From: Crambe crambe
Taxonomy: Eukaryota > Porifera > Demospongiae > Poecilosclerida > Crambeidae
Reading direction: 5' to 3'
Assembly: GCA_963924555.1 (NCBI GenBank)
Contig: OZ004586.1
Location: 1,302,001-1,366,000 of the forward strand
DNA: 64,000 nt
Below the pieces are notes generated by a model that saw only the letters and a program-made list of their open reading frames with translations, was not told where the DNA came from and did no database searches. Of this stretch, positions 26,801-50,762 are shown piece after piece. Each line of letters opens with the position of its first letter. The stretch's first letter is position 1. The position numbers and the translations under genes are program-made.

Positions 26801-27008
26801 GGTGCTTGACGGAAAATCAGTGGAATTTGAACCCAACATCACAGCCTTCGAGATTGTGATTCTTAATGCTTTCGATAAAATGGTGGATGCTGTGAGTTGC
26901 ATTCCACGTGTGGAGACCAAATTGTACCCTGACGAGAGTGAGCAAGTGAGCAAGCCCAACCTCAGTCCTGTCATTGCTGACAGTATCATCCAGGAGGCTA
27001 AAGATGAG
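23878..27008 (+). CDS. DNAH7-like: Inner-arm dynein heavy chain, exons 1-8 (N-terminal tail)
   Basis: Exons 23878-23889, 24129-24345, 24720-24945, 25264-25342, 25443-25626, 25974-26292, 26409-26580, 26757-27008. All junctions are GT-AG and phases agree; together 487 codons. The start MEIQ then [14 protein letters not shown] is chosen because this ATG is followed by a donor in the right phase; an earlier non-coding exon is possible. The first 180 residues are basic and low in conservation. From [20 protein letters not shown] onward the sequence follows DNAH7 (the DTDHVAP.EDSW and PRVETKLY blocks). This part forms the tail that docks the single-headed inner-arm motor on the doublet microtubule. 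Intron 5 contains a minisatellite, and intron 8 is the giant one described separately. Confidence 0.9.
25633..25935. repeat. Minisatellite in dynein intron 5
   Basis: About eight copies of a roughly 34-bp unit with core AGCAGGGTTTCCCCTCAATC, partly degenerate. It fills most of an otherwise short intron. Confidence 0.8.
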
Positions 27009-27419
27009 GTACATACTATGGGGTAGGACCCTGTCATTAGATTAATTGCTTTGAACTTTGACCCCTATAATTATTATGGTCAGAAAGTGTATTAAAAAAT
27101 TATGTAGAAAAAAAGCACTGATCTGAGATCTGAGTCTTGATACTACTATGTGAGAAGTTTAATAAGTCAAGGCACCTGCTCACGTTTGTAGAAGCAGTTG
27201 TGAATGCAACACACTCAGGTGTGGTGTGGTAAATGTTATATGAATGCAACACACTCGTGTGGTGTGGGAAAGTTCAACTGTATGGTTTATGTGGTAGCCA
27301 CATTGTACTATTCTGATCCATATAAGGTACCATGTTTGAATATCATGCGGTCTTATCAGATGCTGCTCTTGTGTAGTTGTGAAGTCTTGTATGTTGTTAT
27401 AGCTAGCTACCAGCTACCA

Positions 27420-30400
27420 ATGGCAGTGCAGAAGTTTCTTTGGTTAGCTTTATTGTTGCTTGCTCTTACTAGCATTTTCCAGTCTTTTTGTTCATCACAA
27501 TCTCTAATATTTGTTGATTCTGAGTGTGATGTGGCTAATGAATCTTGTTATGATCTGGATGATGCATTGGACGATCTTACTTCCAACACCACTCTTGAAC
27601 TGGAATCAGGAACACATGTCATACGTAGATCACATGTGCAAGGTCTACGTAACATGAGTGATGTTTCCATAGTGGGAGACGGCAGAGAAGAGACAGTTGT
27701 ATCATGTGCAGATGAATTTGCTCTCTCTTTCATCAATGTGACTAATCTCATGATTTCTAATTTGACCATCACTGGGTGTGGTCTAACCGGCAACTCCCTT
27801 CAAGATGCAGCCAGTCTTCTTTTAAACATTATCGATCTGAATTTCTATATTCCTCCCAGAATGGAAGTTGGAATATTCCTTGGATATTGTCAGAACTTTA
27901 GAATGACAAATGCTTTGATAAGAAACACTAGTGGAATAGGCTTACTGGGAGTTAATGTTTTCGGGAACTCTGAGCTAGAACATGTGAATTTCACTCACAA
28001 TATCCATCCAGGTTGTCAATTTTCAGTTTTCGAGCAAGGCAATAGCAGTGGTGGGGCTTACTTCTTATATGAAGATCTCCATAATGGTTTTAATGATCTG
28101 AATGATAATATTACCTTATCAATTTCGAATTGTAACTTTTCATACAATGCCGACTGTAGCGATGCTGGCCTTCGTAATCTTGTCTACCAATACCCAAGCA
28201 TTAATGTATCATACTACACTGGAGGAGGTGGAGGCTTATCACTGGTCACAACACAGCAAAACTATACAGTGAATGTCGAAGTAAAGTCCTCCGATTTCTA
28301 CAAAAACGATGCTTATTATGGAGGTGGCGCTTACATTGCTTTATTTGCTGGACTTGGTGTTAATAGTGTTCAATTCGTGAACTGTACTTTTTATAGCAAT
28401 GGTCTGTCCAGTGGGACAAGTGGAGTTGACAGGTCACAAAATAAAGGAGGAGCAGGGATTGTTCTATTTATGGATATGCTCCTTTTTACAAGAGGATCTA
28501 AAATTGGACGTCCACCTTCAGTTGGTTGTGTCGAATGCAAAAGCATTAAAATTGTTGCATCAAATTTCACCAGTAATGCGGCCATCACCGAAGGTGGAGC
28601 TGTGATGGTATACTCTTTGTCAAAGAGCATTCCAGTAAATTACGATGTCCTGGATCCTATATTCGAGTTATATGTATATTTTTCTAAATGTCATTTTGAA
28701 AACAACTTTGCTATGTATGGTTCAGCTTTATATATATTTCAAAGTGTTACGGTAGGCTTTGATGGTGTCTTGCTTATCTTATTCAATGATATCTTCATAA
28801 CTGGAAGTCGGACAAAGCACACTTCTGATAATACGCTCTCAAATCCAGATAAAGTTTCTGCAATAGATTTGAGGAATGTGATAACAAGAATTGGCCGAGG
28901 TAACTTGACAATCAAAGAAAATGAAGTATCTGGAATCCATTTGTCTTCTAGTTCGATTTTAATGGAGCCTCATGCAGTATTGACTATCAAAAAAAATAGA
29001 GCCAATCATGGGGCTGGCATTTACATGGATGGTTCAGTACCAATGATTCATTTACACAAGTCTAGTAAACTGCTGTTTAGTGAGAATCAGGCCAATTTAG
29101 AAGGTGGAGGCGTTTATTATCAGCAGTCTATCGAAGAAAATATTTTACGACCACTTGGTAAAAATATTAGTGACTGTTTTCTGTTCAGTAGTCATGAGTC
29201 GTCTCATTTTTTCGAATTGAATTTAACGATAGAGTTTTACAGAAATGTAGCTCCTAAGGGTAGCATGGTATTTGGTACATCCCTGGGGACATGCCCATGG
29301 GCACGCCAACTAAACGTGACTCATGATTACATGATTTATATGGAATTATACAACAACTCTGAGTATTACAACTCCACGTTTATCTTCAGTAAAAAACCAA
29401 ATGGAACGAAACAAATCAGCAGTGACCCATTCAAGATCAAAGTCGATGAACAGAATAAAAGTATTGAAGCCTATCCGGGGCAGTTACAACATATCAAAGT
29501 GCGTACCTTTGACCTTTTCATGAACAAAATTGGTACAGTTATAACAACGAATAGAATTGGTAGTGATGATTTCGATATAAAAATAGGCATCAGCGGATTT
29601 TGGTACTGTAATAATAGCGATATGCAGCTAGTATCATTGTACATTAATGGAAATACTAATGGAGGGAATCGAACTGTATCATTGTTGACTCTTGATAACA
29701 AAAGAAGCACAGATATAACTGTGAGAATACTTGATTGCCCGCTGGGATTTGTGTATAATAACCACACTCAATCGTGCAAGTGTAATAATATTATTATTGG
29801 TATAAATGATGTGGACTGTAGTGAGACTTCTATGGCTGTCATTATTAATGGACGGAAGTGGCTAGGCTGTGCATATGACAATTGTTCAGTCTTAGTCTTT
29901 GAAGAATTGGTCCTTCCAATTTGCTACTTCAGCTATTGTAATCCGGGAAGCAACAGTATCGTTATAATCAATCAAAGTAGCTTTGACGAACAGTGTGCTA
30001 ATGGCCTCAACAGGGCTGGTGTGATGTGCGGCCGCTGTGCTGAGGGTTACAGCAGTGTATTCGGCAGTGACATATGTAAGGTGTGTAATGATACAAAGTT
30101 AACCATTGCATTCATCTTCATCATCTTGATTATCGGTTCAGTTCACTTTCTCTGTATAGCTCTCCTTGGCCTTACTGTTGACAAAGGATGGACAAATATT
30201 GTTGTTTTACTGGCTAGCATTGTCTTCCCATATGCCTTTGTAGAAGCCACACCATTTAAAGTAATACTGTCTGCAGTAATACCTCTAAAGGCCTTCACTC
30301 TTGATTTCAATCATGTTGGTTTTGATGGTATGTGTTTTTACGATGGGATGACTCCCATAGTTAAATATGTGCTTTATTTCGTTAATCCTCTCTATCTCTT

Positions 30401-31301
30401 AATCCTAATGATAATCTTTACAATTTTCTGTCACTTTTCTACTCGTTTGAGCACGTTCTTTTCTCCATCAAAGACTCTCGTCTCTCTTGCCATCATACTC
30501 TACGTTATCATCTTCAAATCGAGTCTAGAAATTCTTGTGGGTTTACCAATGAAGACTATTGGAGGTAAAGATCTAAGTCCCAGATGGTTAATCGATCCCA
30601 ATGTGCAGTATTTTAATGGTTTGCACGGTGTATTCGTAATTGTAAGCATTCTGCTTTTCATTGGTTATATCATTCCCTTGCCTTTGGCCCTTTTATCTCC
30701 CACACTGGCATACAAATATGTACCACGTTCAAAGCCACTCTTAGATGTCATCTGGGCCCCGTTTAAACCAAAGTATCGTTTCTGGATATCAGTGAGACTT
30801 CTAGTTTCCATTTTCATTGCAGCATCAACGAAATTCATCATATCCAGCACATCCGTACTTTTGAATGCATCTGTGCTTTTCATCTTGGCTTATTTGCAAA
30901 TCTATTTACAACCCTTTGACAAGGAACTGATTAACATAGCAGATAGTTTTTTGATCTTTGCTACTGGATTTTTGCATGCCTCTCTCTATAATAGAGCTAT
31001 AGGTTTTCAAAATGCAGACCATCTCAAGCCAACAGAAACAGCCTGTATAGTGATTATTCTGTCTTCGATTTATTTTGTGCTATTCTTGACTCTCATTCTG
31101 TGCAGCAAGAACAAAACTAGAGAACTGTTTAAAAAGTTTCATGCCTTTCTCAAAGCAAAAAGAACACCCACAGAACTATCAGAAGCCATTCAAAATAGTA
31201 TAACACATACTTCAGTGAAGATCATTCACCCGAACAGAAATTATACGAAACTCCGAGAGAGTCTCTTGGAAGAGGAAGGAGATCGTAATGGTATACAGTG
31301 A
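27420..31301 (+). CDS. Nested polytopic surface protein 1 (beta-helix + multi-TM)
   Basis: 1,293 residues in one exon. The ATG at 27420 (MAVQKFLWLALLLLALTSIF) is chosen because the start is shared with copies 2-4; the frame is open 216 bases further up, with no counterpart in them. Order: signal peptide (1-27); ectodomain of short repeats ending GGGAYIA, GGAVMVY, GAGIYMDG, GGGVYYQQ, typical of right-handed beta-helix proteins, with many NxS/T glycosylation sites; cysteine-rich neck (about 770-880) including GVMCGRCAEGYSSVFGSD; about 8-10 hydrophobic helices (about 885-1215) with the blocks LLGLTVDKGWTN, WLIDPNVQYF and APFKPKYRFWISVRLL; basic tail ending LRESLLEEEGDRNGIQ. I do not recognise a named family. 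The order suggests a surface receptor, channel or transporter. A poly-C run follows the stop. Confidence 0.9.
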   Translation: MAVQKFLWLALLLLALTSIFQSFCSSQSLIFVDSECDVANESCYDLDDALDDLTSNTTLELESGTHVIRRSHVQGLRNMSDVSIVGDGREETVVSCADEFALSFINVTNLMISNLTITGCGLTGNSLQDAASLLLNIIDLNFYIPPRMEVGIFLGYCQNFRMTNALIRNTSGIGLLGVNVFGNSELEHVNFTHNIHPGCQFSVFEQGNSSGGAYFLYEDLHNGFNDLNDNITLSISNCNFSYNADCSDAGLRNLVYQYPSINVSYYTGGGGGLSLVTTQQNYTVNVEVKSSDFYKNDAYYGGGAYIALFAGLGVNSVQFVNCTFYSNGLSSGTSGVDRSQNKGGAGIVLFMDMLLFTRGSKIGRPPSVGCVECKSIKIVASNFTSNAAITEGGAVMVYSLSKSIPVNYDVLDPIFELYVYFSKCHFENNFAMYGSALYIFQSVTVGFDGVLLILFNDIFITGSRTKHTSDNTLSNPDKVSAIDLRNVITRIGRGNLTIKENEVSGIHLSSSSILMEPHAVLTIKKNRANHGAGIYMDGSVPMIHLHKSSKLLFSENQANLEGGGVYYQQSIEENILRPLGKNISDCFLFSSHESSHFFELNLTIEFYRNVAPKGSMVFGTSLGTCPWARQLNVTHDYMIYMELYNNSEYYNSTFIFSKKPNGTKQISSDPFKIKVDEQNKSIEAYPGQLQHIKVRTFDLFMNKIGTVITTNRIGSDDFDIKIGISGFWYCNNSDMQLVSLYINGNTNGGNRTVSLLTLDNKRSTDITVRILDCPLGFVYNNHTQSCKCNNIIIGINDVDCSETSMAVIINGRKWLGCAYDNCSVLVFEELVLPICYFSYCNPGSNSIVIINQSSFDEQCANGLNRAGVMCGRCAEGYSSVFGSDICKVCNDTKLTIAFIFIILIIGSVHFLCIALLGLTVDKGWTNIVVLLASIVFPYAFVEATPFKVILSAVIPLKAFTLDFNHVGFDGMCFYDGMTPIVKYVLYFVNPLYLLILMIIFTIFCHFSTRLSTFFSPSKTLVSLAIILYVIIFKSSLEILVGLPMKTIGGKDLSPRWLIDPNVQYFNGLHGVFVIVSILLFIGYIIPLPLALLSPTLAYKYVPRSKPLLDVIWAPFKPKYRFWISVRLLVSIFIAASTKFIISSTSVLLNASVLFILAYLQIYLQPFDKELINIADSFLIFATGFLHASLYNRAIGFQNADHLKPTETACIVIILSSIYFVLFLTLILCSKNKTRELFKKFHAFLKAKRTPTELSEAIQNSITHTSVKIIHPNRNYTKLRESLLEEEGDRNGIQ

Positions 31302-31982
31302 TTGTTGAATTGTTCTCTTTGTGTACATCACCCCCCCCCCCCCCCCCCCCCCCCCCGTGCTCTGTGTTGCTTTACAACATGATCCTTCTGACTCTGAATA
31401 GCTAGACTTTCTTTGCTGACATTAATAGTTTATACTTATCCATACTCATCACTACAATATCCTTTTATGATTAATCATCCATGGCTTCGATCACACATTA
31501 TAGCATGCCCAATAGCTACTTTCCAGTTCTGAGCACATAAAAGCTCTGCCAATGGCTGGCTATGACCACCAGATGTTACAACTGTAACCAAAGTGCACTA
31601 CTAACTTGTATCAGAGGTTTGAAAAATGCAGCCTGTAACTCTACATATAGCTAATATTTCGCAGTGCTTATGATAAGAAATTGTCCCCACAAAGTATTGT
31701 TTGTCCCTGGACATTGGATCAGGACCAGTACGGATCAGGACCAGTACTTTTGTCCTGATGACAAGAAAAATATCAGGTGTCAGGCTGTTATCATAAGCTC
31801 TGCTTTAGTGACTCATGTGACCACATTGGCTGTTTATAATTATACACACACACTGGGATGTAGAATACCCTTATGTGTAGCAAATTATGACTATATAGAG
31901 TATTAGTCTATGAGTAAGTTTCCAAATTAGTTCAGTATTATTTAAGTATAATTTTTCTAGCAGCTATTATGAAATTTAGAAA
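31302..31982. other. Spacer between nested copies 1 and 2
   Basis: No gene is seen. A run of about 26 C at 31330-31356 may be miscounted in assembly. The promoter module of copy 2 occupies the last 175 bp. Confidence 0.6.
31809..31960 (+). promoter_or_regulatory. Promoter module of nested copy 2
   Basis: TGACTCATGTGACCACAT at 31809-31826 joins an AP-1-type site (TGACTCA) to an M-box (TCATGTGA). GACTATATAG, a TATA-like element, lies about 65 bp further on. Then comes a block TTTCCAAATTAGTTCAGTAT. The same elements in the same order precede copies 3 and 4. A possible 47-bp leader intron (GTAAGT at 31914, TTTCTAG ending 31960) is also visible. Confidence 0.55.
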
Positions 31983-34900
31983 ATGGCAGTGCAGAAGTTT
32001 CTTTGGCTAGCTTTATTGTTGCTTGTTCTTACTAGCATTTTCCAGTCTTTTTGTTCATCGCAATCTCTAATATTTGTTGACTCTGAATGTGATGTAGCTA
32101 ATGAATCTTGTTATGATCTGGATGATGCATTGGATCATCTTACTTCCAACACCACTCTTGAACTGGAGTCAGGAACACACATTATATGTAGATCACATGT
32201 GCAAGGTCTACGTAACATGAGTGATGTTTCCATAGTGGGAGACGGCAGCGAAGAGACAGTTGTATCATGTGAAGGTGAATTTGCTCTCTCTTTCATCAAT
32301 GTAACTAATCTCATGATTTCTAATTTGACCATCACTGGGTGTGGTCTAACTGGCAACTCCCTTCAAGATGCAGCTAGAAGCATTATCGATCTGAATTTCT
32401 ATATTCCTCCCAGAATGGAAGTTGGAATATTCCTTGGATATTGTCAGAACTTTAGTATGATGAATGCTTTGATAACTAATACTAGTGGAATAGGCTTACT
32501 GGGAGTTAATGTTTTGGGTAACTCTGAGCTAGAACATGTGGATTTTATTCGCAATATCCATCCAGGCTGTCAAACCGATAGTTCAATTTTTGAGCAAGTT
32601 AGCAGTGGTGGGGCATATTTTTTATATGGAAATCTCCATGATGGTTTTAATGACCTGAACAATGTTACCTTATCAATTTCGAACTGTAACTTTTCATACA
32701 ATGCTGACTGTAGTTATGCTGGCCGTCGCAATCTCGTGTACCAATACATACTTATGCCTACTCGGTTTGCATACCTCGCTGGAGGAGGTGGAGGCTTATC
32801 ACTGGTCACAACACAGCAGAACTATAATGTGATTATGGAAGTAAAATCCTCCAATTTCTACAAAAATGATGCCTATTATGGAGGTGGGGCTTACATTGCT
32901 TTATTTGCTGGACTTGGTAATAGTAGTGTTGAATTCATGGACTGTGCTTTTGATAGTAATGGTCTCTCCAGTGCGATGGATACAGTCAACAAGCCACAAA
33001 GTAAAGGTGGGGCGGGGATAGCTGTATTTATGGACATGCTCTTTTTCCCAAGGGGCTCAAGAATTGGACTTCCATCCTTGGTTAGGTGTATCAATTGCAA
33101 GGTCATTGTATTCGATAAAATAAATTTCACCAATAATGCTGCTCTTAATGATGGTGGAGCTCTGATGGTATACTCATTGTCAAAGAGCATTCGTATAAAC
33201 TACAGAGAAGGTATTTCATCAGATCTTTCGGTAACTGTTTCCAAGTGTTATTTCAAAAATAACTTTGCTTTGTATGGTTCAGCTTTGTATGCATTTCAAA
33301 GGGCTACTGTAGGTTTGGATGGTGCCTTGGTTATCCTGTTAAACGATATCTTCATAACTGGAAGCCAGGCAGAGTACAATTCTGACGAGATAATTTCGAA
33401 TCAGGATAGAGTTTCAGCAGTGGATTTGCGGAATGTGATAGCAACAATCGATCGAGGTTATGTGATAATTAAAAATAACGCTGTATCTGGAATCCATTTG
33501 TTTTCGAGTATTATTCTAATAAACCCTCACACAGTCTTGACTATTGAAGAAAATAGAGCCAATCGTGGAGCTGGTGTTTATATGGATGGCTTGCTACCAG
33601 CCATCTTGTTAGGTGAGAATAGTACATTGTCGTTTCTCAAGAATCATGCCCATTTGGAAGGTGGAGCTGTTTATTACAAGCAATCAACTGAAGGAAGAGA
33701 TTTTTACCAATCATCTGTATTTGGTCTGCGATACTGTTTCGTGTCTAATAACGAGTTAGTTCAGACTAATTTCTTCAAATGGAATTTAACTATTGAATTT
33801 ATTGATAACGTAGCTCCTAACGGCAGTATGATATATGGTACATCCCTCTGGACTTGTCCATGGGCAAGTCAAGTAAATGTGACTCATGAACATATGATGT
33901 ATATGGAGTTATATGACAATAGTGAGTATTACAACTCCACATTCGTCTTCGGTGAAAGACCAAATGGAACGAAACAAGTCAGCAGTGACCCATTCATAAT
34001 CAAAGTCAATGAACAGAATAAAAGCATAACTTCCTATCCAGGGCAGGTGCAACGTATTGGAGTGAGCACTTTGGACCTTTTCATGAACAAGATAGATGCA
34101 CTTATAACTACAAACAGCATTGGTGGTGATGATGTCGATATCAGAACAGGATCCAGTGGATTTTGGTACAATCGTAACAAGCCACTTCCATTGTATGTTA
34201 ATGGAAATGCTAGTAGAGAGAATAGAACAGTATCATTGCTGACTGTTGATGGCCGAAAGAACACAAATATAACCGTGAGAATACTTGACTGCCCACTGGG
34301 ATTCATATACGATGATGAAACTCATTCATGCAAGTGTAATATAATGGATATATATGGTCTGGACTGTAATGAGCGGCCTTTAAAACTCATTGTTCATGGA
34401 CGAAGGTGGCTAGGCTGTACATCCAGCAACTGCCTGGTCTTTGAAGACTTGGTCTTGATAAATTGCTATTTCAGCTATTGTGATCCAGATAATGATATCG
34501 TCCAGTTCAATCAAACTACCTCTGACGAACAGTGTGCTATCGGCTCACACAGAACTGGTGTGATGTGCGGCAGCTGTGCTGAGGGTTACAGCAGTGTATT
34601 TGGCAGTGGTAAGTGTGAGATCTGCAGTGGTACAAATGTTGCACTCATCTTTATCATCTTGATCAAAGGTTTAGTTCTCTTTCTCTGTATAGCTCTCCTT
34701 GGCCTTACTGTTGACAAAGGATGGACAAATATGGTTGTCTTATTAGCTGGTATTGTCTTCCCATATTCCTTTGTTGAAAACTCACCATTTATAGTATTGC
34801 AGTCTGCAGTTATACCTCTAAAAGCCTTCACTCTTGACTTCAACCATATTGGTTTCCACATGTGTTTCTACGATGGGATGACTCCCATCGTTAAATCGGT

Positions 34901-35867
34901 ACTTTATTTCATTAATCCTCTCTACCTTTCAATTCTAATGTTAGCCTTTGCTATCATCTGTCACTTCTCTACTCGTTTGAGCACATTCCTTTCTCCATCA
35001 AAGACACTTGTCTCCATTGCGGTTATACTCTATGCTACTACTTCTAGAACAAGTCTAGAAATTCTTGTGGGTTTACCAATGAAGACTATTGGAGGTAAAG
35101 ATCTAAGTCCCAGATGGTTAATCGATCCCAATGTGCAGTATTTTGATGGTTTGCACGGTGTATTCGTAATTGTAAGCATTTTGCTTTTCATTGGTTATAT
35201 CATTCCCTTGCCTTTGGCCCTTTTATCTCCCACACTGGCATACAAATATGTACCACGTTCAAAGCCACTCTTAGATGTCATCTGGGCCCCGTTTAAACCA
35301 AAGTATCGTTTCTGGATATCAGTGAGACTTCTAATCAATGTATATATTGCAATGCAGACGAAATTCAATACACCCGATGTATCCATACCTTTGAATGTGT
35401 CAGTACTTTTAATCTTTGCTCATATCCAAAGTACTTTACAACCCTTTAATTCTAAACTGATCAACATAGCAGATAGTTTTTTGATCCTTGCTACTGGATT
35501 TTTTCATGCCCCACTCTTAAGCAGAGCTCTATCTTTAGAAACAGGAAAACAATTGACACCAGTGGAAATTACCTTTATTGCTATAGTTTTGCCTTCGATT
35601 TATTTCGTGCTACTCTTGACTCTTATTCTCTGCAGTAAGGACAAGGCTAAAAAACTATTTAACAAGTTTCATACTTTTCTTAAAGAAAGAAAAGGAAAGA
35701 AAATGGAAACATCAATCCACAGCAAAAATCAACCACAAAGTACTTTTATCGAGTCACACAATTCAGTGAGCATTGTTTACCAGAGGGTCAACTTCGGAAA
35801 ATACCGAGAAATAAACAATATGAGATGCCGAGAGAGCCTTCTCGAAGATGATGAAAATATGATATAA
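31983..35867 (+). CDS. Nested polytopic surface protein 2
   Basis: 1,294 residues, one exon, same plan as copy 1: signal peptide MAVQKFLWLALLLLVLTSIF; beta-helix-like ectodomain; neck with CPLGFIYDDETHSCKC and GVMCGSCAEGYSSVFGSG; membrane region about 885-1214; tail of about 80 residues ending CRESLLEDDENMI. Positions 33830-34480 are nearly identical to copy 3, and 35050-35332 are nearly identical to copy 1, so the gene is a mosaic. Variable stretches with in-frame length changes lie at about 135-145, 195-205 and 255-265. No breaks are seen. It is preceded by the shared promoter module. Confidence 0.9.
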   Translation: MAVQKFLWLALLLLVLTSIFQSFCSSQSLIFVDSECDVANESCYDLDDALDHLTSNTTLELESGTHIICRSHVQGLRNMSDVSIVGDGSEETVVSCEGEFALSFINVTNLMISNLTITGCGLTGNSLQDAARSIIDLNFYIPPRMEVGIFLGYCQNFSMMNALITNTSGIGLLGVNVLGNSELEHVDFIRNIHPGCQTDSSIFEQVSSGGAYFLYGNLHDGFNDLNNVTLSISNCNFSYNADCSYAGRRNLVYQYILMPTRFAYLAGGGGGLSLVTTQQNYNVIMEVKSSNFYKNDAYYGGGAYIALFAGLGNSSVEFMDCAFDSNGLSSAMDTVNKPQSKGGAGIAVFMDMLFFPRGSRIGLPSLVRCINCKVIVFDKINFTNNAALNDGGALMVYSLSKSIRINYREGISSDLSVTVSKCYFKNNFALYGSALYAFQRATVGLDGALVILLNDIFITGSQAEYNSDEIISNQDRVSAVDLRNVIATIDRGYVIIKNNAVSGIHLFSSIILINPHTVLTIEENRANRGAGVYMDGLLPAILLGENSTLSFLKNHAHLEGGAVYYKQSTEGRDFYQSSVFGLRYCFVSNNELVQTNFFKWNLTIEFIDNVAPNGSMIYGTSLWTCPWASQVNVTHEHMMYMELYDNSEYYNSTFVFGERPNGTKQVSSDPFIIKVNEQNKSITSYPGQVQRIGVSTLDLFMNKIDALITTNSIGGDDVDIRTGSSGFWYNRNKPLPLYVNGNASRENRTVSLLTVDGRKNTNITVRILDCPLGFIYDDETHSCKCNIMDIYGLDCNERPLKLIVHGRRWLGCTSSNCLVFEDLVLINCYFSYCDPDNDIVQFNQTTSDEQCAIGSHRTGVMCGSCAEGYSSVFGSGKCEICSGTNVALIFIILIKGLVLFLCIALLGLTVDKGWTNMVVLLAGIVFPYSFVENSPFIVLQSAVIPLKAFTLDFNHIGFHMCFYDGMTPIVKSVLYFINPLYLSILMLAFAIICHFSTRLSTFLSPSKTLVSIAVILYATTSRTSLEILVGLPMKTIGGKDLSPRWLIDPNVQYFDGLHGVFVIVSILLFIGYIIPLPLALLSPTLAYKYVPRSKPLLDVIWAPFKPKYRFWISVRLLINVYIAMQTKFNTPDVSIPLNVSVLLIFAHIQSTLQPFNSKLINIADSFLILATGFFHAPLLSRALSLETGKQLTPVEITFIAIVLPSIYFVLLLTLILCSKDKAKKLFNKFHTFLKERKGKKMETSIHSKNQPQSTFIESHNSVSIVYQRVNFGKYREINNMRCRESLLEDDENMI

Positions 35868-35939
35868 TTAGTGTATATACATGTGTCTGTATGTAGCTTA
35901 TTCTTTATGTTATGTGTGTAAACACTTTAAAAGACACTA

Positions 35940-36059
35940 CACTGTAAAAATGAAAGTGTTTACTGCACACTAAATTGTCCCAATACACACACCAAAAACA
36001 AAAACAGTGTGTGTATTGGGACAAAATGGTGTGCAGTAAACACTTTCATTTTTACAGTG
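35940..36059. mobile_element. Tc1/mariner-like MITE with TA duplication
   Basis: A 120-bp element formed by two almost perfect inverted arms of about 52 bp (outer end CACTGTAAAAATGAAAGTG) with a loop of about 16 bp, flanked by TA on both sides. The near-identity of the arms suggests a young insertion. It lies between copies 2 and 3 and is absent from the matching spacers. Confidence 0.85.
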
Positions 36060-36101
36060 TATAGTCCACTCATGGGCTGTATATACGTAGCTAGGGTTTA
36101 G

Positions 36102-36238
36102 TGACTCATGTGACCACATCATAGCTGTTTATAGTTAGCTGGGATATCCAACTCCCCATAGAATACTCATCGTATACTTAATTATGACTATATACAATAT
36201 TCTGTGAGTATGCTTTCCAAATTAGTTCAGTATTCTAG
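36102..36238 (+). promoter_or_regulatory. Promoter module of nested copy 3
   Basis: TGACTCATGTGACCACAT at 36102-36119, GACTATATA at 36186-36194, then TTTCCAAATTAGTTCAGTAT, 22 bp before the ATG. It is preceded by ATACGTAGCTAGG, shared with copy 4. Confidence 0.55.
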
Positions 36239-36259
36239 TATTATTATGAAGTTTGGAAA

Positions 36260-39200: not shown

Positions 39201-40120
39201 ACCTTTCAATTCTAATGTTAGCCTTTGCTATCATCTGTCACTTCTCTACTCGTTTGAGCACATTCCTTTCTCCATCGAAGACTCTAGTCTCTCTTGCCAT
39301 CATACTTTATGCTACTACTTTCGGATCAAGTCTAGAAATTCTTGTGGGTTTATCAATGAAGACTATCGGAGGTAAAGATCTACATCCCAGATGGTTAATC
39401 GATCCCAATGTGCAGTATTTTGATGGTTTGCATGGTGTATTCGTAATTGTAAGCATTTTGCTTTTCATTGGTTATATCATTCCCTTGCCTTTGGCCCTTT
39501 TATCTCCCACACTGGCATACAAATATGTACCACGTTCAAAGCCACTCTTAGATGTCATCTGGGCCCCGTTTAAACCAAAGTATCGTTTCTGGATATCAGT
39601 GAGACTTCTAATCAATGTATACATTGCAATGCAGACGAAATTCAATACACCCGATTTATCCATACCTTTGAATGTGTCAGTACTTTTAATCTTTGCTCAT
39701 ATCCAATGTACTTTACAACCCTTTAATTCTAAACTGATCAACATAGCAGATAGTTTTTTGATCCTTGCTACTGGATTTTTGCATGCCTCACTCTTAAGCA
39801 GAGCTCTATCTTTAGAAACAGGAAAACAATTGACACCAGTGGAAATTGCCTTTATTGCTATAGTTCTGCCTTCGATTTATTTTGTGCTACTCTTGACTCT
39901 TATTCTCTGCAGTAAGGACAAGGCTAAAAAACTATTTAACAAGTTTCATACCTTTCTTAAAGCGAAGAAAGTTTCTAGGGAACTATTACCGCCTAGTAGT
40001 TTTATTGAGAGTCGACCGACACACAATTCAGTCAGCATTGTCAACTTGAAATACAAAGAGATAAACAATATGAAATGCCGAGAGAGCCTTCTTGAAGATG
40101 ATGAAAGTGGGATATTATAA
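36260..40120 (+). CDS. Nested polytopic surface protein 3
   Basis: 1,286 residues in one exon. Same architecture: signal peptide MAVLKFLWLALLLLVLTSIF, beta-helix-like ectodomain (GGVYIALFAGLG, GGAVMVYSLSKS, GAGIYLDGLLP), cysteine-rich neck, membrane region, tail ending CRESLLEDDESGIL. It is closest to copy 2 over the neck and membrane part but differs in the first 300 residues, with short in-frame gaps (FYIPEVGI where copy 2 has FYIPPRMEVGI). No stops or frame changes. The tail is about eight residues shorter than in copy 2. Confidence 0.9.
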   Translation: MAVLKFLWLALLLLVLTSIFQSFCSSQSLVFVDSECDVANESCYDLDDALDHLTSNTTLGLESGTHIICRSHVQGLRNMSDVSIVGDGREETVVSCEGEFALSFINVTDLMISNLTITGCGLTGNSLQDATVLLSRIVNLNFYIPEVGIFLGHCQNFRMTNALITNTSGIGFLGVNIFGKSELRDVKFTRNIHPGCLNDTPILGQTSSGGAFFLYEDLRSGLNEMNDVTLSISNSDFSYNADCNTAGQLNVVYQYRITPIEFSYYAGGGGGLSLVTTQQNYTVNVEVKSSNFYKNDAFYGGGVYIALFAGLGVNNIQFMDCTFDSNGLSSGMDTVNKPRSKGGAGIAVFMDILLFSGHSRIGHPPSISCINCKVIVFDKMNFTSNAALNEGGAVMVYSLSKSIRIDYRGDNISSDLSVNFSTCHFENNFAMYGSALYVFQRADISLDGDLVVVLNDIFITGSQAEYNSEEMISNQDQVSAVDLRNVIAIGAGYVIIKDNFVSGIHLSSSFILTHPHTVLTIEGNRANRGAGIYLDGLLPVIWLGKSSRLQFLRNQANLEGGAVYYKRSIQGRSFDPLSVLGLPYCFVSNDELVQTNFFKWNLTIEFIDNVAASGSMIYGTSLWTCPWASQVNVTHEHMMYMELYDNSEYYNSTFVFIETPNGTKQVSSDPFMIKVNEQNRSITSYPGQVQYIRVSTLDLFMNKIDALITTNSIGGDDVDIRTGSSGFWYNRNKPLPLYVNGNASRENRTVSLLTVDGRKNTNITVRILDCPLGFIYDDETHSCKCNITDIYGLDCNERPLKLIVHGRRWLGCASSNCLVFEDLVLINCYFSYCDPDNDVVQFDQPSSDKQCVIGSHRTGVMCGSCAEGYSSVFGSGKCEICSGTNVAIVFIILIISSVYFLCIALLGLTVDKGWTNMVVLLAGIVFPYAFVEASPFKVILSAVLPLKAFTLDFSHVGFHMCFYDGMTPIVKSVLHFINPLYLSILMLAFAIICHFSTRLSTFLSPSKTLVSLAIILYATTFGSSLEILVGLSMKTIGGKDLHPRWLIDPNVQYFDGLHGVFVIVSILLFIGYIIPLPLALLSPTLAYKYVPRSKPLLDVIWAPFKPKYRFWISVRLLINVYIAMQTKFNTPDLSIPLNVSVLLIFAHIQCTLQPFNSKLINIADSFLILATGFLHASLLSRALSLETGKQLTPVEIAFIAIVLPSIYFVLLLTLILCSKDKAKKLFNKFHTFLKAKKVSRELLPPSSFIESRPTHNSVSIVNLKYKEINNMKCRESLLEDDESGIL

Positions 40121-40489
40121 TTTTCATGTCTTCGTGTGTCTATCTGTGTATGTACATATGATAAACTGTGATAGAGCTAGTAATGCTGTTCTTTTTGTTT
40201 ATGTGTGTAAACATTTTAAACTACACTTGGGCATGCATGTAGCTTGAACTCTGTATTTCATTATACGTAGCTAGGCTTTAGTGACTCATGTGACCACATT
40301 ACAACTTTTCATAGTTAATTATGCATGCTTGTGCCAACTCCCCATAGAATATACTCTATAGGGTATACATACTATCGCATACTTACTTATGTGTAACCAA
40401 TTATGACTATATAGAGTATTAGTCTATGAGTAAGTTTCCAAATTAGTTCAGTATTATATTTTTCTAGCAGTTATTATGAAGTTTAGAAA
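40121..40489. other. Spacer between nested copies 3 and 4
   Basis: Holds the copy 4 promoter module in its last 210 bp; otherwise nothing is seen. Confidence 0.6.
40282..40467 (+). promoter_or_regulatory. Promoter module of nested copy 4
   Basis: TGACTCATGTGACCACAT at 40282-40299, GACTATATAG at 40405-40414, TTTCCAAATTAGTTCAGTAT after it, and a possible 38-bp leader intron (GTAAGT at 40430, TTTCTAG ending 40467). Confidence 0.55.
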
Positions 40490-43400
40490 ATGGCAGTGCA
40501 GAAGTTTCTTTGGCTAGCTTTATTGTTGCTTGCTCTTACTAGCGTTTTTCAGTCTTTTTGTTCATCGCAATCTCTAATATTTGTTGACTCTGAGTGTGAT
40601 GTGGCTAATCAATCTTGTTATGATCTGGATGATGCATTGGATCATCTTACTTCCAACACCACTCTTGAACTGGAGTCAGGAACACACGTCATATGTAGAT
40701 CACATGTGCTAGGTCTACGTGACATGAGTGATATTTCCATTGTGGGAGACGGCAGAGAAGAGACAGTCGTATCATGTGAAGACGAATTTGCTCTCTCTTT
40801 CATTAATGTAACTAGTCTCATGATTTCTAATTTGACCATCACTGAGTGTGGTCTTACTGGCAACTCCCTTCAAGATGCAACCGTTCTTCTCTATGATGTC
40901 ATAGATTCAATTTTCTACTTTCCTCCCACTTTGGAAATTGGAATATTCCTTGGATATTGTTACAACTTCAGAATGACAAACATTTTAGTAACCAATACTA
41001 GTGGAATAGGCTTACTGGGAGTTAATATTTTTGGTAATTCTGAGCTAAAACACACGACTTTCACTCACAATATCCATCCTAATTGTCATACCGATAATCC
41101 AGATCTAGATCAAGTCAGCAGTGGGGGTGCATACTTTCTGTATGAAGACGGTTACAACAGACTTAAGGATTTGAATACCCTTCAGATTTTGAACTCTAAT
41201 TTTTCTTACAATGCTGACTGTGGCTCTGCTGGGCTCCTGAACTTAAACTATCAATACTATTCTGCTTTTCCCAATATAACCTACCACATTGGAGGAGGTG
41301 GAGGCTTTTCGCTAGTCATGGCACAACGAAACTATGCTGTAACTGTGAATATAGACTCGTCCAATTTCTACAAAAATGATGCCCGATATGGAGGTGGCGC
41401 ATACATTGCTGTTTTTTCCAGTTCTGTTGTAGATACAATTCGATTCATGAACTGCACTTTCGATCAAAACGGTTTGCCAAGTGAGATAAACACTCAGGCT
41501 CGTATGGAAGGAGGGGCAGGGATTGCTTTATTGATGGACATGCTTTTATTTTGGGGGAAAATTGGGCATGCTCCTTTAACTAGCTGCAATGCATGCAGGG
41601 ATATCAGCATCATTGAAACTAATTTCACCAATAATGCAGCTCTTACTGAAGGAGGGGGAGTAATGGTCTTTTCTCTATCAAAGAGCATTCGCAGAAATTA
41701 TGATTTGTGGAATATCAATGTGGCTGTGAGATTTACTGCAAGTCGCTTTGAAAATAACTTTGCTAAATATGGTTCAGCATTGTACATCTTCCAAAAAGTT
41801 ACTCTTGGCTTGGATGGTATATTAACTGTCTTATTTAACAATATCTTTGTAACAAAGAGTCAGGCTATGTATAATTCTGACAATGGCATCACAGGTTTAA
41901 GTGAGAATAGACTTTCTGCCATTGATTTGAGGAATGTTGTAGCTGCAGTATCACGTAATATGACGATCAAAAATAATGCTGTATCTGGGTTCTATCTATC
42001 ATCAAGCTTAATTGTAGTCACTTATGGTGCGACCTTAATCATTGAAGGAAATATAAGCAATCGTGGAGGTGGTGTATACATGGACGGTTTGATAAATGGG
42101 ATCTTATTATCAAATGATTCCGAAGTGCTCTTCCGTGAGAACCAAGCTACCGCAGAAGGAGGTGCTGTATATTATGAAAATCCTTCCAACGAGAGCATCT
42201 TGCAACCGGTCAGTGCTCCTGGTTGTATCGTATCCACTTTTGAGAATGAGCCAGGTTTGCATATGTTCCAGTGGAATATTGTGATTGAATTCACCAATAA
42301 TAGAGCGCCCATTGGTAGTATTGCGTTCGGAACTTCTCTGGGAAGCTGTTCGTGGGCAAGCCAACTCAATGTGTCTGAGAATGATATATTTTCAGAGTTA
42401 TACAGCAATAGTCGCTTCAATTCCACGTTTATATTCAGCGAAAATCCAAATGAAGCAAAATGGATTAGCACGGAGCCTTATATGATCAAAGTCGATGAAC
42501 GGGATAGAAGTATTACTTCGTTTCCGGGCCAGTTCCACTATATCAACGTGTTCACCTTGGATCGTTTCATGAACAAGATTGATGCAATTATAACCACAAA
42601 CAGAATTGGTGGTAACGGCATTGATATCAGAATAGGATCCAGTGGATTTTGGTACAATCGTAACGACCCAGTTCCTCTGTTCATCAATGGCAGTACAAAT
42701 GGAAGCAACATCACAGTTTTGTTATCGACTAATAATTTGGTTAGTACGAATATAACCATCAAAATACTGAACTGTCCAATTGGTTTTGTATACGACAATG
42801 AAACAAAGTCTTGCAAGTGTGATATTATGAATATCAGCACCCTAAGCTGCGACGAGAATATATCCATAAGGATTCGTAAGAGAGAGTGGCTAGGTTGTGC
42901 ATCTCAGCCTGGTACTTGCATGGAATTTAAAGATTTGGTCTTGCTGAATTGTCATTTCAGCTACTGTGATCCGGCAGATATCGAGTTCAATTATTCAAAT
43001 ACGGACAATCAGTGCACCAGGGGCTCTAACAGGACTGGATTGATGTGTGGTGGCTGTGCTGCAGGCTACAGCATTTCACTGGGCAGCGATCAGTGTATAA
43101 TCTGTAGAGATGTGAACATTGGGTTCATTTTCGGCATTTTTATCATCAGCATTATCCTCTTTCTGTGCATCTCTCTCCTTGGCCTCACTATAGATAAGGG
43201 ATGGACAAATATGGTCGTCATGTTTTCCGGAATCGTTTTCCCATATGCATTCATTGGAGCTTCCCCAGCTGTTGTATTGCAGAGGGCATTTATACCTTTG
43301 AAATTCTTCACCATCGATTTTAACAACGTGGGTTATAGCATTTGTCTTTTTGATGGATTGACTCCTATTGTCAAAGCAGCAATTAATTTTGTGATCCCTC

Positions 43401-44353
43401 TCTACCTCTGCTTTTTTATGCTAATCTTCGGCATCATCTGCCATTTCTCTACTTATATGAGTGAGCATTTTTCTCCGTCAAAAACTCTAGTCTCTCTTGC
43501 CCACATGCTGTATTCTGTCGTTTTCCGGTCTTCTCTTTTTATAATAGTGCCGATATCAATAGTGACTATCGGAGGTACTTCATACCCACCTAGATGGCTG
43601 ATAGATCCAAATATGAAGTATTTTGATGGTTTTCATGCTGCATTGGGAGTTCTAAGTTTCTTATTGCTTTTTGCATACATTATCCCTCTACCTCTAGTGG
43701 TTTTCTTTCCCTCGCTGGCATACAAATATGCAAAACGCTTGAAACCGTTTTTAGATGTCATTTATGCTCCCTTTAAGCCTAAATGTCGCTTCTGGGTGTC
43801 CGTGCGACTTCTCTTTTCTGTTTTTATACCATTGATTACGGCATTCAACATACCCGAATTGGCCATTCCTGTGAATTTAGTTGCACTGATCTTTTTTCTT
43901 TATCTCCAAATGAGTTTACAACCATTTAATGATAAAGTGATCAATGTTGCTGATAATTTCTTGATCCTTATCACCATTGTGTTACATGCCAATGCCTACT
44001 TAAGAGCTGTTGACAACATAGACAGAGAAAAATTAACACCGAGAGAAATTGCCACCATTGTGATCACTTTAAGTTCAGCCTATTTCGTGATTATTCTCAC
44101 ACTTATCATCTGTGGTAGGAATAAAATAGTAATGATGTTACGGAAGCTTTCTTCTTTCATGAAGAAACAGTTGAAGAGAGCATCAGAACTTCAGAATCAA
44201 TCACGAAACAGTACTCTGAATAGAGGAACATTGCCTACACACACTTCAATAAGCGTTACAGCAGAAGACCAAACTGTTTGCTACAGAAATTTCACTTCTG
44301 CACGAGAAAGCATTCTAGAAGATAGCGTGTTCACTTCTAATGATAACCTTTAA
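40490..44353 (+). CDS. Nested polytopic surface protein 4
   Basis: 1,287 residues, one exon. The first 150 residues stay close to copies 1-3 (MAVQKFLWLALLLLALTSVF) but the rest is clearly more diverged: the neck reads GLMCGGCAAGYSISLGSD and the membrane part has FIFGIFIISIILFLCISLLG. All cysteines of the neck appear kept. The tail ends with ARESILEDSVFTSNDNL, so the RES[LI]LE motif survives but its surroundings do not. The mix of a conserved 5' end with a diverged 3' part suggests that the 5' end and promoter were homogenised by conversion. A polyadenylation signal AATAAA lies at 44544-44549. Confidence 0.9.
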   Translation: MAVQKFLWLALLLLALTSVFQSFCSSQSLIFVDSECDVANQSCYDLDDALDHLTSNTTLELESGTHVICRSHVLGLRDMSDISIVGDGREETVVSCEDEFALSFINVTSLMISNLTITECGLTGNSLQDATVLLYDVIDSIFYFPPTLEIGIFLGYCYNFRMTNILVTNTSGIGLLGVNIFGNSELKHTTFTHNIHPNCHTDNPDLDQVSSGGAYFLYEDGYNRLKDLNTLQILNSNFSYNADCGSAGLLNLNYQYYSAFPNITYHIGGGGGFSLVMAQRNYAVTVNIDSSNFYKNDARYGGGAYIAVFSSSVVDTIRFMNCTFDQNGLPSEINTQARMEGGAGIALLMDMLLFWGKIGHAPLTSCNACRDISIIETNFTNNAALTEGGGVMVFSLSKSIRRNYDLWNINVAVRFTASRFENNFAKYGSALYIFQKVTLGLDGILTVLFNNIFVTKSQAMYNSDNGITGLSENRLSAIDLRNVVAAVSRNMTIKNNAVSGFYLSSSLIVVTYGATLIIEGNISNRGGGVYMDGLINGILLSNDSEVLFRENQATAEGGAVYYENPSNESILQPVSAPGCIVSTFENEPGLHMFQWNIVIEFTNNRAPIGSIAFGTSLGSCSWASQLNVSENDIFSELYSNSRFNSTFIFSENPNEAKWISTEPYMIKVDERDRSITSFPGQFHYINVFTLDRFMNKIDAIITTNRIGGNGIDIRIGSSGFWYNRNDPVPLFINGSTNGSNITVLLSTNNLVSTNITIKILNCPIGFVYDNETKSCKCDIMNISTLSCDENISIRIRKREWLGCASQPGTCMEFKDLVLLNCHFSYCDPADIEFNYSNTDNQCTRGSNRTGLMCGGCAAGYSISLGSDQCIICRDVNIGFIFGIFIISIILFLCISLLGLTIDKGWTNMVVMFSGIVFPYAFIGASPAVVLQRAFIPLKFFTIDFNNVGYSICLFDGLTPIVKAAINFVIPLYLCFFMLIFGIICHFSTYMSEHFSPSKTLVSLAHMLYSVVFRSSLFIIVPISIVTIGGTSYPPRWLIDPNMKYFDGFHAALGVLSFLLLFAYIIPLPLVVFFPSLAYKYAKRLKPFLDVIYAPFKPKCRFWVSVRLLFSVFIPLITAFNIPELAIPVNLVALIFFLYLQMSLQPFNDKVINVADNFLILITIVLHANAYLRAVDNIDREKLTPREIATIVITLSSAYFVIILTLIICGRNKIVMMLRKLSSFMKKQLKRASELQNQSRNSTLNRGTLPTHTSISVTAEDQTVCYRNFTSARESILEDSVFTSNDNL

Positions 44354-44812
44354 CCTCTGGATCTCTTTTAGACTAGCTATATTTTTTGTATGATGATCAT
44401 GTCATGATTTTTTTTAAAAATTACATCACAGCTTTAATCTTATTATGCTTTCCCCAACTCCTGACCATCACCTCATATGACTTGTATTATTTCATTATTC
44501 TTATCCCTTAAACTTCATATCTGTGATGTACATTTTTTTACTGAATAAAGCTAATTTGATGCATCCACATTCTCTTTACTCATCATGACACAGTGTCATG
44601 TATTGAAACTCGTATGTATAAATTATTAGCCACAAACTTCTAAATAAGTAGATCATGTGATGTTATGTGGCCATTTGAAGAGATACTACTCATAGTACTT
44701 ATATGTATTCTGCTCTATCAGCTGTTTAAACAGTCACTCTATATATGATTTCACGATGAGAATGTGCAAGCTAGCTAAGTTCCTTAACTAACTTGCTGTA
44801 GGTAAGCTAAAG
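44354..44812. other. Spacer between nested copies 4 and 5
   Basis: AATAAA at 44544-44549 probably ends copy 4. An M-box TCATGTGA at 44653-44660 is the only element clearly shared with the other promoters. No gene is seen. Confidence 0.55.
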
Positions 44813-47800
44813 ATGTTGTTGCCACTTCTTGTAGCTCTTAGTCCCCTGTTCTGTCTTCCTATTGGAGCTCAAAGTGATAGTCTTCAGACCTATGTTAGTA
44901 TTACATGTGATGATGGCATGCTGGGTGAAGATTTTTCAGGTGATTCTTCAGGTGATTCATGCTTTGATCTTGATGGAGCTTTGAGAGAATTGACCAGCGG
45001 GATGACCCTCATTCTGGAACCAGGTACACACCTGGTAGAACAATCTCATCACAACGTCACTCGTGATCTAACTGATATTACAATAACTGGTTCTGGAGTC
45101 CATGAAACAAGGATCAATTGTACTGATGGAGTTGGCTTTTCATTCATTGGCATGGCAAATTTAAGTATTATCAACCTTACCATCACAAATTGTGGTGTGA
45201 CAGGTGAGCCCCTCCGGAATACAGTTGATCTGTTGAAGAAGGAAATCAATCTCTGGTTCCAGGTGCCTCCAAGCATAAAAGTGGCCGTCCTGATTGGCAA
45301 TTGTGAAGATGTCACAGTTCAAGATGTACATATCACTGACACGCAAGGTCTCGGTCTACTGGGGATCAACAATCTAGGAAAATTAGAACTCTTTCGCGTG
45401 AATTTCACACGAAATATACGACCAAGGTGTATTGATAATGAACCTTTTCTTCCGTCACTCATCACCCCTAATATTCACGACCAAGTAGGAGGTGGGGCTT
45501 ACTTCCTCTACATGGATTACTATAACACATCTCGAGTTAAGGATGATGTTAAGTTGCTGATATCGGAGTCTTACTTTGCATACAATGCTGATTGTACTTA
45601 TGCAGCCAGCACTAATGGGAATTATCCATACTTCACTGAAAAGAGTCGAGGATTGTATCAATATGCAGTTGGAGCTGGTGGTGGCTTATCGGTAGTCTTA
45701 TCAAACAGTAACTTCTCCATCGCAGTGCAAATCAATAAAACTGTCTTCCAACGAAATGATGCAAGATATGGGGGAGGAGCATATGTTTCCGTTTATGCAG
45801 GCCAGCAGCATCATATTAAAGTGCTATTCTCAAACTGTAACTTTATTGAAAATGGAATAGCCAGCTTAAAAGATAATGATGCTTTTAACGAGACACATTG
45901 CAAAGGAGGAGCAGGGATGGTTATATTCACAGATCTGATAAAACCGGAGCATTTTCTCAATCCAATTCCAACTCCTGGCTCCAATGTCGTAATAGAGGTC
46001 ATTGAGTCTAATTTTATCCGTAACAGTGCCTCAATACAGGGAGGAGGTGTCATGGCTCATTCACTTTTCACTACTCCTCACAAAGTATCTGATATTGTCA
46101 ATAAAACGAACTATTTCACCATAAACTGGTCCTTCAAGAATTGTAACTTCATAAATAACTCAGCCCAGTATAGCTCGGCAGGTTTTTTCAAGCAAAGAAG
46201 TCTTCTGGGCTCAAGCGGTTCAGTGCATCTGACTTTACAAAAGCTCATTGTATCTGGGAAGTTCGATCAATCCTCCACCAGTTCACTAAGAATAAAGAAA
46301 GGCACTTCTGCTATGCTCATCAAGAGCATCGTGTCTACTGTTGATGAAGGCATGACAACATTTGTGAACAATTCAGGTTCGGCTTTACACATCGATTCTT
46401 CTGTTTTGAGAGTTAAATCAAAAGCTTCGATCATTTTCCGTAAAAATTTAGCCCATCAAGGAGGAGGCATTTATTTGAGAGCCCCACAATTAATCCTTCA
46501 TCCAAATTGCAGTCTCAATTTTTCCAGCAATCGTGCTTTTATGCAAGGCGGGGCTATATTTTTCGAATCTCCAAATCCCAATACAATTCTGCGCTCTTTA
46601 CTCCGCCAAGACTGTTTCCTTGCTACCCCATATTTATTCAGACGCGAAGATCCTTCTGGGAAGTACAATTTATTCAATAACGGCATCACACTCGAATTTA
46701 AAGATAATTATGCCCCTGTGGGTAGCATTATATATGGTTCTACTCTGGAATCCTGCCCATGGGCGAGAAATATATCAAAAAACAGAAAGCTTTCTCTCTA
46801 TCAAATACTTCACGAAAGATATAATGATACCTTTAAATTTGACAAGTCTCTTAGTGATAATAATTCAATCAACACACCTCCTGCTTATATCAATGTGACT
46901 GTAATCTCTCCAAATTCTGAAGAAGTATTGAATCTTTACCCAGGCCAAGAGGCTAACATTCGCGTTATGGTATTTGATAAGTATAAGAATGTTATTCCCG
47001 AAATTATCACATCGTCAGTTGAAGATGCATCCTTGTTAGCAATGTCAATGGTAGGAGGTTCTGGATTTTGGTACTCTGGTGTCAAACAGACTCAGCTTCA
47101 TGTGACAGGAACGTACAATGGTCGTTTGAATGTATCGATATTCACAGAAACAAATGCAATTAGTACTACTCTTTTGGTCAATCTATCCCATTGTCCTTTG
47201 GGTTTTGATTTCACAGGTAGAAGTTGCACTTGTAACCGATTGCTGCGCAAAGTACAGGGCATAGAGTGTAGCAATACCTCCATCTCTTTCACTACTTACA
47301 ACAGATTCTGGATTGGTGTCAACCCAAGTAGGACTAATAACACCATGAACGATTTAATCACCCAGCAATGTATACTCAACTATTGCCAGCTCGGTAATAT
47401 CACTGTAAGATCTCCAAATTTTGACTCTCAGTGTACAGAGAATCGAACGGGGATTTTGTGTGGAGCATGTACCGAAGGTTACAGTGTTGTCTTTGGGACT
47501 TTGGAGTGTCACAAATGTAGCAATTATTGGTTATTCTTGATTCCTGTGTTTGCTCTTGCCGGTGCAGTCTTATTCATTTCCATTGCTCTCCTTGAAATCA
47601 CCATTGATAAAGGCTTCACCATTACCTTATTATTCTTCGTCAAAGCTGTCTTTTTATATGATTTTCGCATTCCTGATCCGATGTATAATGCACTCTTCCT
47701 ACCCGCTCGGCTCTTGAACCTTCAAATAGGACTAAGCACTTGTTTTTTCGATGGAATGACAGCTCTTCACCGTAGTGTGCTTCAACTAGCTTTCCCTGCA

Positions 47801-48712
47801 TATCTCTACCTACTGATGGGCATATTCACTATCCTGTGCCGAAGATTTACATGGCTAAGTGTCCGTTTTTCCCCTCCAAAAACCCTAATGACCCTCGCAG
47901 TTATGTGCTATTTAAATGTGTTTATCGCATGCCTGGAAATCTTATCACCCGTGCCCTTGAAAAACTTGGAACAGCATGTAGTGTACATCCAATGGTTTAG
48001 CGATCCAAATCAAGGCTATTTCAAGGGCTTGCACATCCTTACAGGAGGAATAGGAATCATTGTGATTCTTATCTATATCATTCCCTTTCCAATTCTCCTG
48101 CTTCTTCCTACCCTTGCCTACAAACACATGAAAAAATTTGCCCCTCTTTTTGACGCTCTCTGGGGAGCATACCAGCAAAAATTTCGAATCTGGCTAGGAA
48201 TTCGTCTGATTATGATCGCCTTACTCTATCTCACCACACGTGCTCCAGCTGACTATGGATTTATTGCCAGCGGTATTGTCATCGTCAGCTTCTCTAACAT
48301 CCAAACACTAATTCAACCCTTGAAGGATAAGTGGGCAAATTATGCTGATACTTTCTTCAGTGTTATGGTGATTCTTTTTTACTGGGGAGCCGAAGCCACT
48401 AAGAATTATGAGCAAACACCAACAGTGAGAATCGTTACAATCACTTATATAGCTTTTTTCTCCATGCTGTCATATTTGGTCATGCTCGCTCTGTTTATTC
48501 AGCATATTTACCGCCACTATCGCTCCCAGTGGACTAAACTTTATAAGCGGTTAAGAATGAAGAAGAGTGAAATAGGAAGTGTGTTGTTGGATGATGACAG
48601 CTCTAGCAGCTCCATTACTCACTCTACAGTCTATGTACGTCGTAAACTATCACTAACACTTCCAGAAGAGCCACGATATCGGGAATCCCTGCTTGAAACC
48701 CCCACACTATAA
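44813..48712 (+). CDS. Nested polytopic surface protein 5 (divergent)
   Basis: 1,299 residues, one exon, and the oldest branch of the set. Signal peptide MLLPLLVALSPLFCLPIGAQ, then an acidic insert (EDFSGDSSGDSCFDLDGALR) where the others have ANESCYDLDDALD. The beta-helix-like repeats (GGGAYFLYMD, GGGAYVSVYAG, GGGVMAHSL, GGGIYLRA, GGAIFFES) are kept in the same order. Neck: GILCGACTEGYSVVFGTLEC. Membrane region starts WLFLIPVFALAGAVLFISIA. The blocks DP..GYFKGLHIL, LPTLAYKHM and FRIWLGIRLI match the other copies in place. The tail ends YRESLLETPTL, keeping RESLLE. AATAAA at 48908-48913 lies 196 bp beyond the stop. Confidence 0.9.
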   Translation: MLLPLLVALSPLFCLPIGAQSDSLQTYVSITCDDGMLGEDFSGDSSGDSCFDLDGALRELTSGMTLILEPGTHLVEQSHHNVTRDLTDITITGSGVHETRINCTDGVGFSFIGMANLSIINLTITNCGVTGEPLRNTVDLLKKEINLWFQVPPSIKVAVLIGNCEDVTVQDVHITDTQGLGLLGINNLGKLELFRVNFTRNIRPRCIDNEPFLPSLITPNIHDQVGGGAYFLYMDYYNTSRVKDDVKLLISESYFAYNADCTYAASTNGNYPYFTEKSRGLYQYAVGAGGGLSVVLSNSNFSIAVQINKTVFQRNDARYGGGAYVSVYAGQQHHIKVLFSNCNFIENGIASLKDNDAFNETHCKGGAGMVIFTDLIKPEHFLNPIPTPGSNVVIEVIESNFIRNSASIQGGGVMAHSLFTTPHKVSDIVNKTNYFTINWSFKNCNFINNSAQYSSAGFFKQRSLLGSSGSVHLTLQKLIVSGKFDQSSTSSLRIKKGTSAMLIKSIVSTVDEGMTTFVNNSGSALHIDSSVLRVKSKASIIFRKNLAHQGGGIYLRAPQLILHPNCSLNFSSNRAFMQGGAIFFESPNPNTILRSLLRQDCFLATPYLFRREDPSGKYNLFNNGITLEFKDNYAPVGSIIYGSTLESCPWARNISKNRKLSLYQILHERYNDTFKFDKSLSDNNSINTPPAYINVTVISPNSEEVLNLYPGQEANIRVMVFDKYKNVIPEIITSSVEDASLLAMSMVGGSGFWYSGVKQTQLHVTGTYNGRLNVSIFTETNAISTTLLVNLSHCPLGFDFTGRSCTCNRLLRKVQGIECSNTSISFTTYNRFWIGVNPSRTNNTMNDLITQQCILNYCQLGNITVRSPNFDSQCTENRTGILCGACTEGYSVVFGTLECHKCSNYWLFLIPVFALAGAVLFISIALLEITIDKGFTITLLFFVKAVFLYDFRIPDPMYNALFLPARLLNLQIGLSTCFFDGMTALHRSVLQLAFPAYLYLLMGIFTILCRRFTWLSVRFSPPKTLMTLAVMCYLNVFIACLEILSPVPLKNLEQHVVYIQWFSDPNQGYFKGLHILTGGIGIIVILIYIIPFPILLLLPTLAYKHMKKFAPLFDALWGAYQQKFRIWLGIRLIMIALLYLTTRAPADYGFIASGIVIVSFSNIQTLIQPLKDKWANYADTFFSVMVILFYWGAEATKNYEQTPTVRIVTITYIAFFSMLSYLVMLALFIQHIYRHYRSQWTKLYKRLRMKKSEIGSVLLDDDSSSSSITHSTVYVRRKLSLTLPEEPRYRESLLETPTL

Positions 48713-49001
48713 GTCATTAGCTTATTTTTTAAATCATTGTTTGATGATTGTGAGTGAGTGATTTTTATAGTTGATATTACACCTTTTAAATACATGCATG
48801 TAATGTGTCATGTGATGTATATTCTACACTTCTACATAAGATTTACTTCTTTACTCTCTATTGTAGTATCATTATTGTACACAATGTGAATACATATTAC
48901 TTGTTTCAATAAATTTTTAGTGTAGAGATGAAAAGGTAGAGCATATAGCTAATCTGTATGACATAGAATACAATAGCAGCTTATTCTTGTTGCATCCACA
49001 G

Positions 49002-50730: not shown

Positions 50731-50762
<32 letters not shown>

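Follow-up and report, generated by a model that had tools for sequence, protein, structure and literature searches.

How do five large genes come to lie within a gene for a ciliary motor, and are they genes in their own right inside one intron? The locus that raises this question lies in a 64,000-nucleotide stretch of DNA from the sponge Crambe crambe (hereafter the window, meaning the whole stretch analysed), where the coding pieces of a DNAH7-like axonemal dynein gene are separated by 21,993 bp holding five long open reading frames, N1 to N5. The sequence favours a single DNAH7 gene with a 22-kb intron and five intact genes on the same strand inside it. We consider it highly probable that these are five separate single-exon genes, in sense orientation within one spliced DNAH7 intron, that arose by tandem duplication accompanied by gene conversion.

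Five long frames within one dynein intron

The coding sequences of all five fall inside 27009-49001, on the plus strand. Counted from the conserved ATG, they comprise 1293 codons in N1 (27420..31301), 1294 in N2 (31983..35867), 1286 in N3 (36260..40120), 1287 in N4 (40490..44353) and 1299 in N5 (44813..48712), the most divergent copy. An earlier note on this DNA had described five same-strand, intronless frames of 1,286-1,299 codons without stops, a description that we could reproduce with the word 'intronless' limited to the coding sequence. A run of 26 C is located directly 3' of N1 (31331-31356), and a palindrome of about 124 bp, a MITE-like repeat without assigned strand, lies between N2 and N3 (35938..36061). 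A 25-base stretch of its arm was found at 515 genome sites with at most two mismatches, and the reversed control at 0.

The proteins begin with hydrophobic leaders at the ATG. Their predicted layout is a secreted ectodomain, a cysteine-rich neck, a multi-pass membrane part and a short tail that carries a conserved motif of the RES(L/I)L type. We found a parallel beta-helix with POMP repeats, the fold being recognised in N4 by re-alignment of 674 Foldseek-ranked chains and the repeats in N2 and N4 (PF02415 at 23.6 and 22.6, cut-off 20.6). PF02415 did not match N1, N3 or N5 at 0.01; among four relatives scanned, L033 and L038 scored 48.5 and 69.6 and L014 and L025 gave no match. DUF7630 (PF24633) reached 17.2-21.7 bits in four of the five proteins, N4 having none, against a Pfam cut-off of 27, and in a genome search for this domain N5 scored 27.8 with its neighbours included in the frame. 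The C-terminal region contains hydrophobic segments and appeared as helices in a low-confidence model (pLDDT 42 for the membrane half). A PDB sequence search at E 1 revealed no solved relative for the membrane half, GPCR and TRP-like receptors included, nor any for the ectodomain, and an NCBIfam scan of N4 and N5 gave no match. They most probably act as receptors at the cell surface, in recognition or adhesion.

Signals upstream and downstream of the genes

Each of N1 to N5 is most probably a gene in its own right, driven by its own promoter. A 19-base box, GTGACTCATGTGACCACAT, is common to N2, N3 and N4 (31808..31826, 36101..36119 and 40281..40299, all plus strand), where it begins at -158 to -208 and contains TGACTCA and CATGTG, which we take to be AP-1-like and E-box-like, respectively. 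Its three exact matches in the 143-Mb genome all precede these three genes; allowing two mismatches added two places elsewhere in the genome, and the reversed control pattern had one match. TATATA is found at -71 to -91 in N2-N4 and at -73 in N5, which also has CATGTG at -159. A lone TATATA proves little, because TATAWW occurs by chance in 9-14% of the 46-bp non-coding stretches nearby, and the upstream signals of N2-N4 are not mutually independent cases. In N1 the box is absent and there is no TATAWW in the last 150 bp before the ATG; its upstream DNA is unlike that of N2-N4, and its likeness to the other copies stops at the ATG. Downstream, AATAAA is present 191 bp after N4 (at 44544) and 196 bp after N5 (at 48908). 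It is absent from the spacers behind N1, N2 and N3, and N2 has one AATAAA 57 bp before the gene end.

Could the frames instead be alternative last exons of the dynein, or parts of a polycistronic unit processed by leader trans-splicing? They lie on the host's strand, a count by eye places acceptor-like TAG ends 11-22 bp ahead of the ATG in N2-N5, and N1, besides lacking the box, has a frame that stays open for 72 codons before its ATG. However, N2-N5 have in-frame stops 2-8 codons before the ATG, so in-frame read-on from an upstream coding exon is not possible there; alternative last exons or dynein read-through are thus unlikely for these four, and N1 is the copy with the open frame. With the leaders at the ATG and the conserved upstream box also against it, this explanation as a whole appears unlikely. 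A tiny 5' UTR intron (GT donor, CTAG acceptor) before N2-N4 was considered but not adopted; at about 31-47 bp by our count, it would fall below even the host's smallest gap (56 bp).

The host's coding sequence continues across the intron

The host exon left of the array (26766..27008, plus strand; the coding piece used, with an approximate left edge) ends at the donor GAG/GTACAT, and the exon to its right (49002..49088, plus strand) starts after the acceptor CCACAG/ATTCGA. The intron between them (27009..49001, plus strand) is GT..AG and in phase 0. Further DNAH7-like coding pieces were placed at 49168..63822 on the plus strand, and a Dynein_heavy domain match lies 4.5 kb past the window end on the host's strand. 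When the protein joined across the two exons was aligned with DNAH7 (PDB 8j07 chain g2, residues 399-539), the junction was free of gaps (E 2.5e-29), indicating that the host coding sequence continues in phase over the intron; a previous query with a provisional junction had also matched DNAH7 (E 1.1e-81). A 1,106-residue join from 50.1-56.2 kb scored 1,755 bits with DNAH7 and 1,344 with DNAH12, the next chain type. DNAH7 was its top match among the matches listed (60 of 84 distinct sequences), and by these bit scores it is DNAH7, among the axonemal heavy chains, that the host resembles most. Between the 36 coding pieces placed at 25.5-63.8 kb there are 35 gaps, slightly over-estimated where pieces were trimmed: 33 measure 56-643 bp, and the remaining two 2,114 and 21,993 bp. 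These results bear out the earlier note, which had claimed a 22-kb intron between in-phase exons collinear with DNAH7, and other introns of about 50-600 bp plus one of 2.1 kb.

The size of the intron, about ten times that of the host's next largest gap, would also suit two genes with no 22-kb intron, namely an amino-terminal dynein fragment that stops before the array is reached, and a truncated dynein beginning near 49 kb. We regard this as very unlikely in view of the canonical sites, the phase and the gap-free alignment at the junction, and of the open coding pieces on either side of the array. Least credible of all is that the assembly has fused two loci or has the copy number wrong, as the window has zero N, the array sits on an 8.84-Mb contig, the copies diverge far more than sequencing error would allow (dS 0.18 between N2 and N3, higher for the other pairs) and the outer margins of the array run into host exons on both sides. 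For five genes nested in one intron, the reading that we prefer, the host pre-mRNA would be spliced across 22 kb and all five genes removed with the intron.

Other elements were noted in the window and the genome. In the host's 2.1-kb gap, a 326-codon antisense frame (59639-60619, minus strand) matched ResIII and Helicase_C over the cut-off and is a second nested element in the same host, perhaps a fragment. Beside the dynein, four long frames with NHL repeats and Filamin lie in a row (2543-20238, minus strand), with RING over the cut-off in one and weak in another. Rfam and tRNA scans of the window gave no match. Three short stretches of the genome matched the cathepsin family: one on contig C15 reads QSQCGASYAFSAMAALEG, in which the serine is the mark of silicatein, making a demosponge likely; one on C9 has the ordinary CGSCWAF; and the third falls elsewhere in the domain.

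Probable tandem duplication and gene conversion in the array

The origin of the array was examined with a single tree, built from the C-terminal 620 residues in 30 proteins and given a root for display alone; conversion may have affected this region too. N1-N5 formed one clade (97/93) with the relative L014 beside it (100/99), and within the array N5 branched first, followed by N4, N1 and N2+N3. A single ancestor followed by tandem duplication in place would fit this tree.

We then compared third codon positions of N4 with those of N1, N2 and N3. The differences were 16/136, 13/133 and 16/136, respectively, in columns 1-150, and 565/1130, 556/1131 and 551/1127 in the remaining columns, that is, 10-12% versus 49-50% (Fisher p 3e-18 or less). 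The likeness of N4 to N1-N3 is thus concentrated in the first ~140 codons, and N2, N3 and N4 also have upstream DNA in common. Conversion of the 5' ends among N1-N4 would account best for their alike starts. Constraint on the first ~140 codons is the alternative, but N5 is unlike the others there. Whole-gene dN/dS was 0.25-0.44 in all six pairs among N1-N4. Between N2 and N3, dN was 0.11-0.19 in the mid-ectodomain and 0.03-0.04 in the neck and membrane part; because dS falls as well, this contrast is not evidence of positive selection.

Together, these data suggest that a single-exon gene encoding a surface protein with a beta-helix came to be located in one DNAH7 intron of a demosponge-like genome, on the sense strand, and multiplied there by tandem duplication in the order of the tree, gene conversion keeping the 5' ends of N1-N4 alike. 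The array would turn over inside a conserved gene.

A large family and a probable second host

Three protein searches and one domain search located the family at no fewer than 87 distinct places in the genome (143.1 Mb, 119 contigs), a lower bound because, of the 547-716 first-look candidates in each protein search, no more than 34-36 were scored. The count used all rows of two protein searches and of the domain search, and 34 of the 75 rows of the third protein search, whose other 41 rows appear to be additional parts of frames already counted. Places less than 3.6 kb apart were merged, so that close neighbours count once, and rows with internal stops were kept (1 of 37, 1 of 47 and 2 of 75 in the three protein searches). 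These four rows aside, the listed matches fall within open frames 823-1,835 residues long, indicating that the absence of coding introns is a trait of the family and not a local event. Retroposition into the intron is therefore not needed to explain the missing introns. On contig C19, a further beta-helix gene in a single frame (L043:870-3383, minus strand), whose PAN-domain matches stay under the cut-off, adjoins a cluster of the family.

The nearest relative of the array, L014 (C14:2890260-2894222, minus strand), is most likely also nested, antisense, in another gene, because the plus-strand pieces that flank it, when joined, match SLC37A2 in order (E 1.5e-13). One piece lies at C14:2886209-2886430 (L040:2209-2430), and two lie on the other side, at C14:2895080-2895525 (L014:6081-6526) and C14:2896323-2896472 (L041:709-858), the last weak alone. 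A rule of nesting for the family is not supported, however. The flanks of 25 loci outside the window were surveyed over up to about 1.5 kb by eye and with a rough coding score, with larger flanks at two sites, and L014 was the only one of the loci examined with a recognisable single gene on both sides. Judged by eye, several of the rest appear to have different genes on their two sides, and nesting was seen twice.

The array points to a large single-exon receptor-like family that is hardly recognised by the curated libraries searched. This family may be new, as literature searches found no description of it in the portions of the sources that they yielded. A bolder proposal, for which we see only a slim chance, is that sponges have a very large and undescribed family of beta-helix membrane receptors, encoded in single exons, that uses host introns as safe sites, and that the DNAH7 array is tied to its host by competing transcription. 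If such competition did occur at DNAH7, receptor choice would be linked to the ciliated state of the cell.

Comparison with known nested genes

Nested genes are frequent in sponges, with 3,358 in Amphimedon and 2,432 in Aphrocallistes (PMC10282587, Table 1), and several per host occur elsewhere: the sections at hand report same-strand nesting and four genes in one host for the ctenophore Hormiphora (PMC8527503), and Sgs4 with four ng (nested) genes in the dunce intron of Drosophila (PMC10835880). Nesting and interference have been surveyed in mammals (PMC8467205). The array is thus a large example of a known arrangement, a real and unusually large case of genes nested in introns. In those sections, the sponge and ctenophore reports mention no intron that holds five paralogues in tandem. 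The array also offers a compact natural setting in which to ask how a long host transcript survives passage through five genes on its own strand that have presumed start and end signals of their own.

From the sections at hand, the dunce cluster resembles the array in that several genes of one kind, of which three lack the usual intron, are grouped inside an intron of an unrelated host. It differs in that the array consists of five genes, each about 3.9 kb long and oriented like the host, which encode predicted multi-pass membrane proteins within a ciliary motor host. The LRRTM genes in alpha-catenin introns are likewise surface-protein genes within unrelated hosts, with relatives in different hosts, although the part of PMC3933685 at hand describes one gene per host, on the opposite strand, in large introns of paralogous hosts. 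Finally, the beta-helix repeats of the array proteins are like those of the chlamydial Pmp proteins (POMP; PF02415 / TIGR01376), but the array proteins are eukaryotic, with a cysteine-rich neck and predicted membrane helices that would take the place of the autotransporter barrel.
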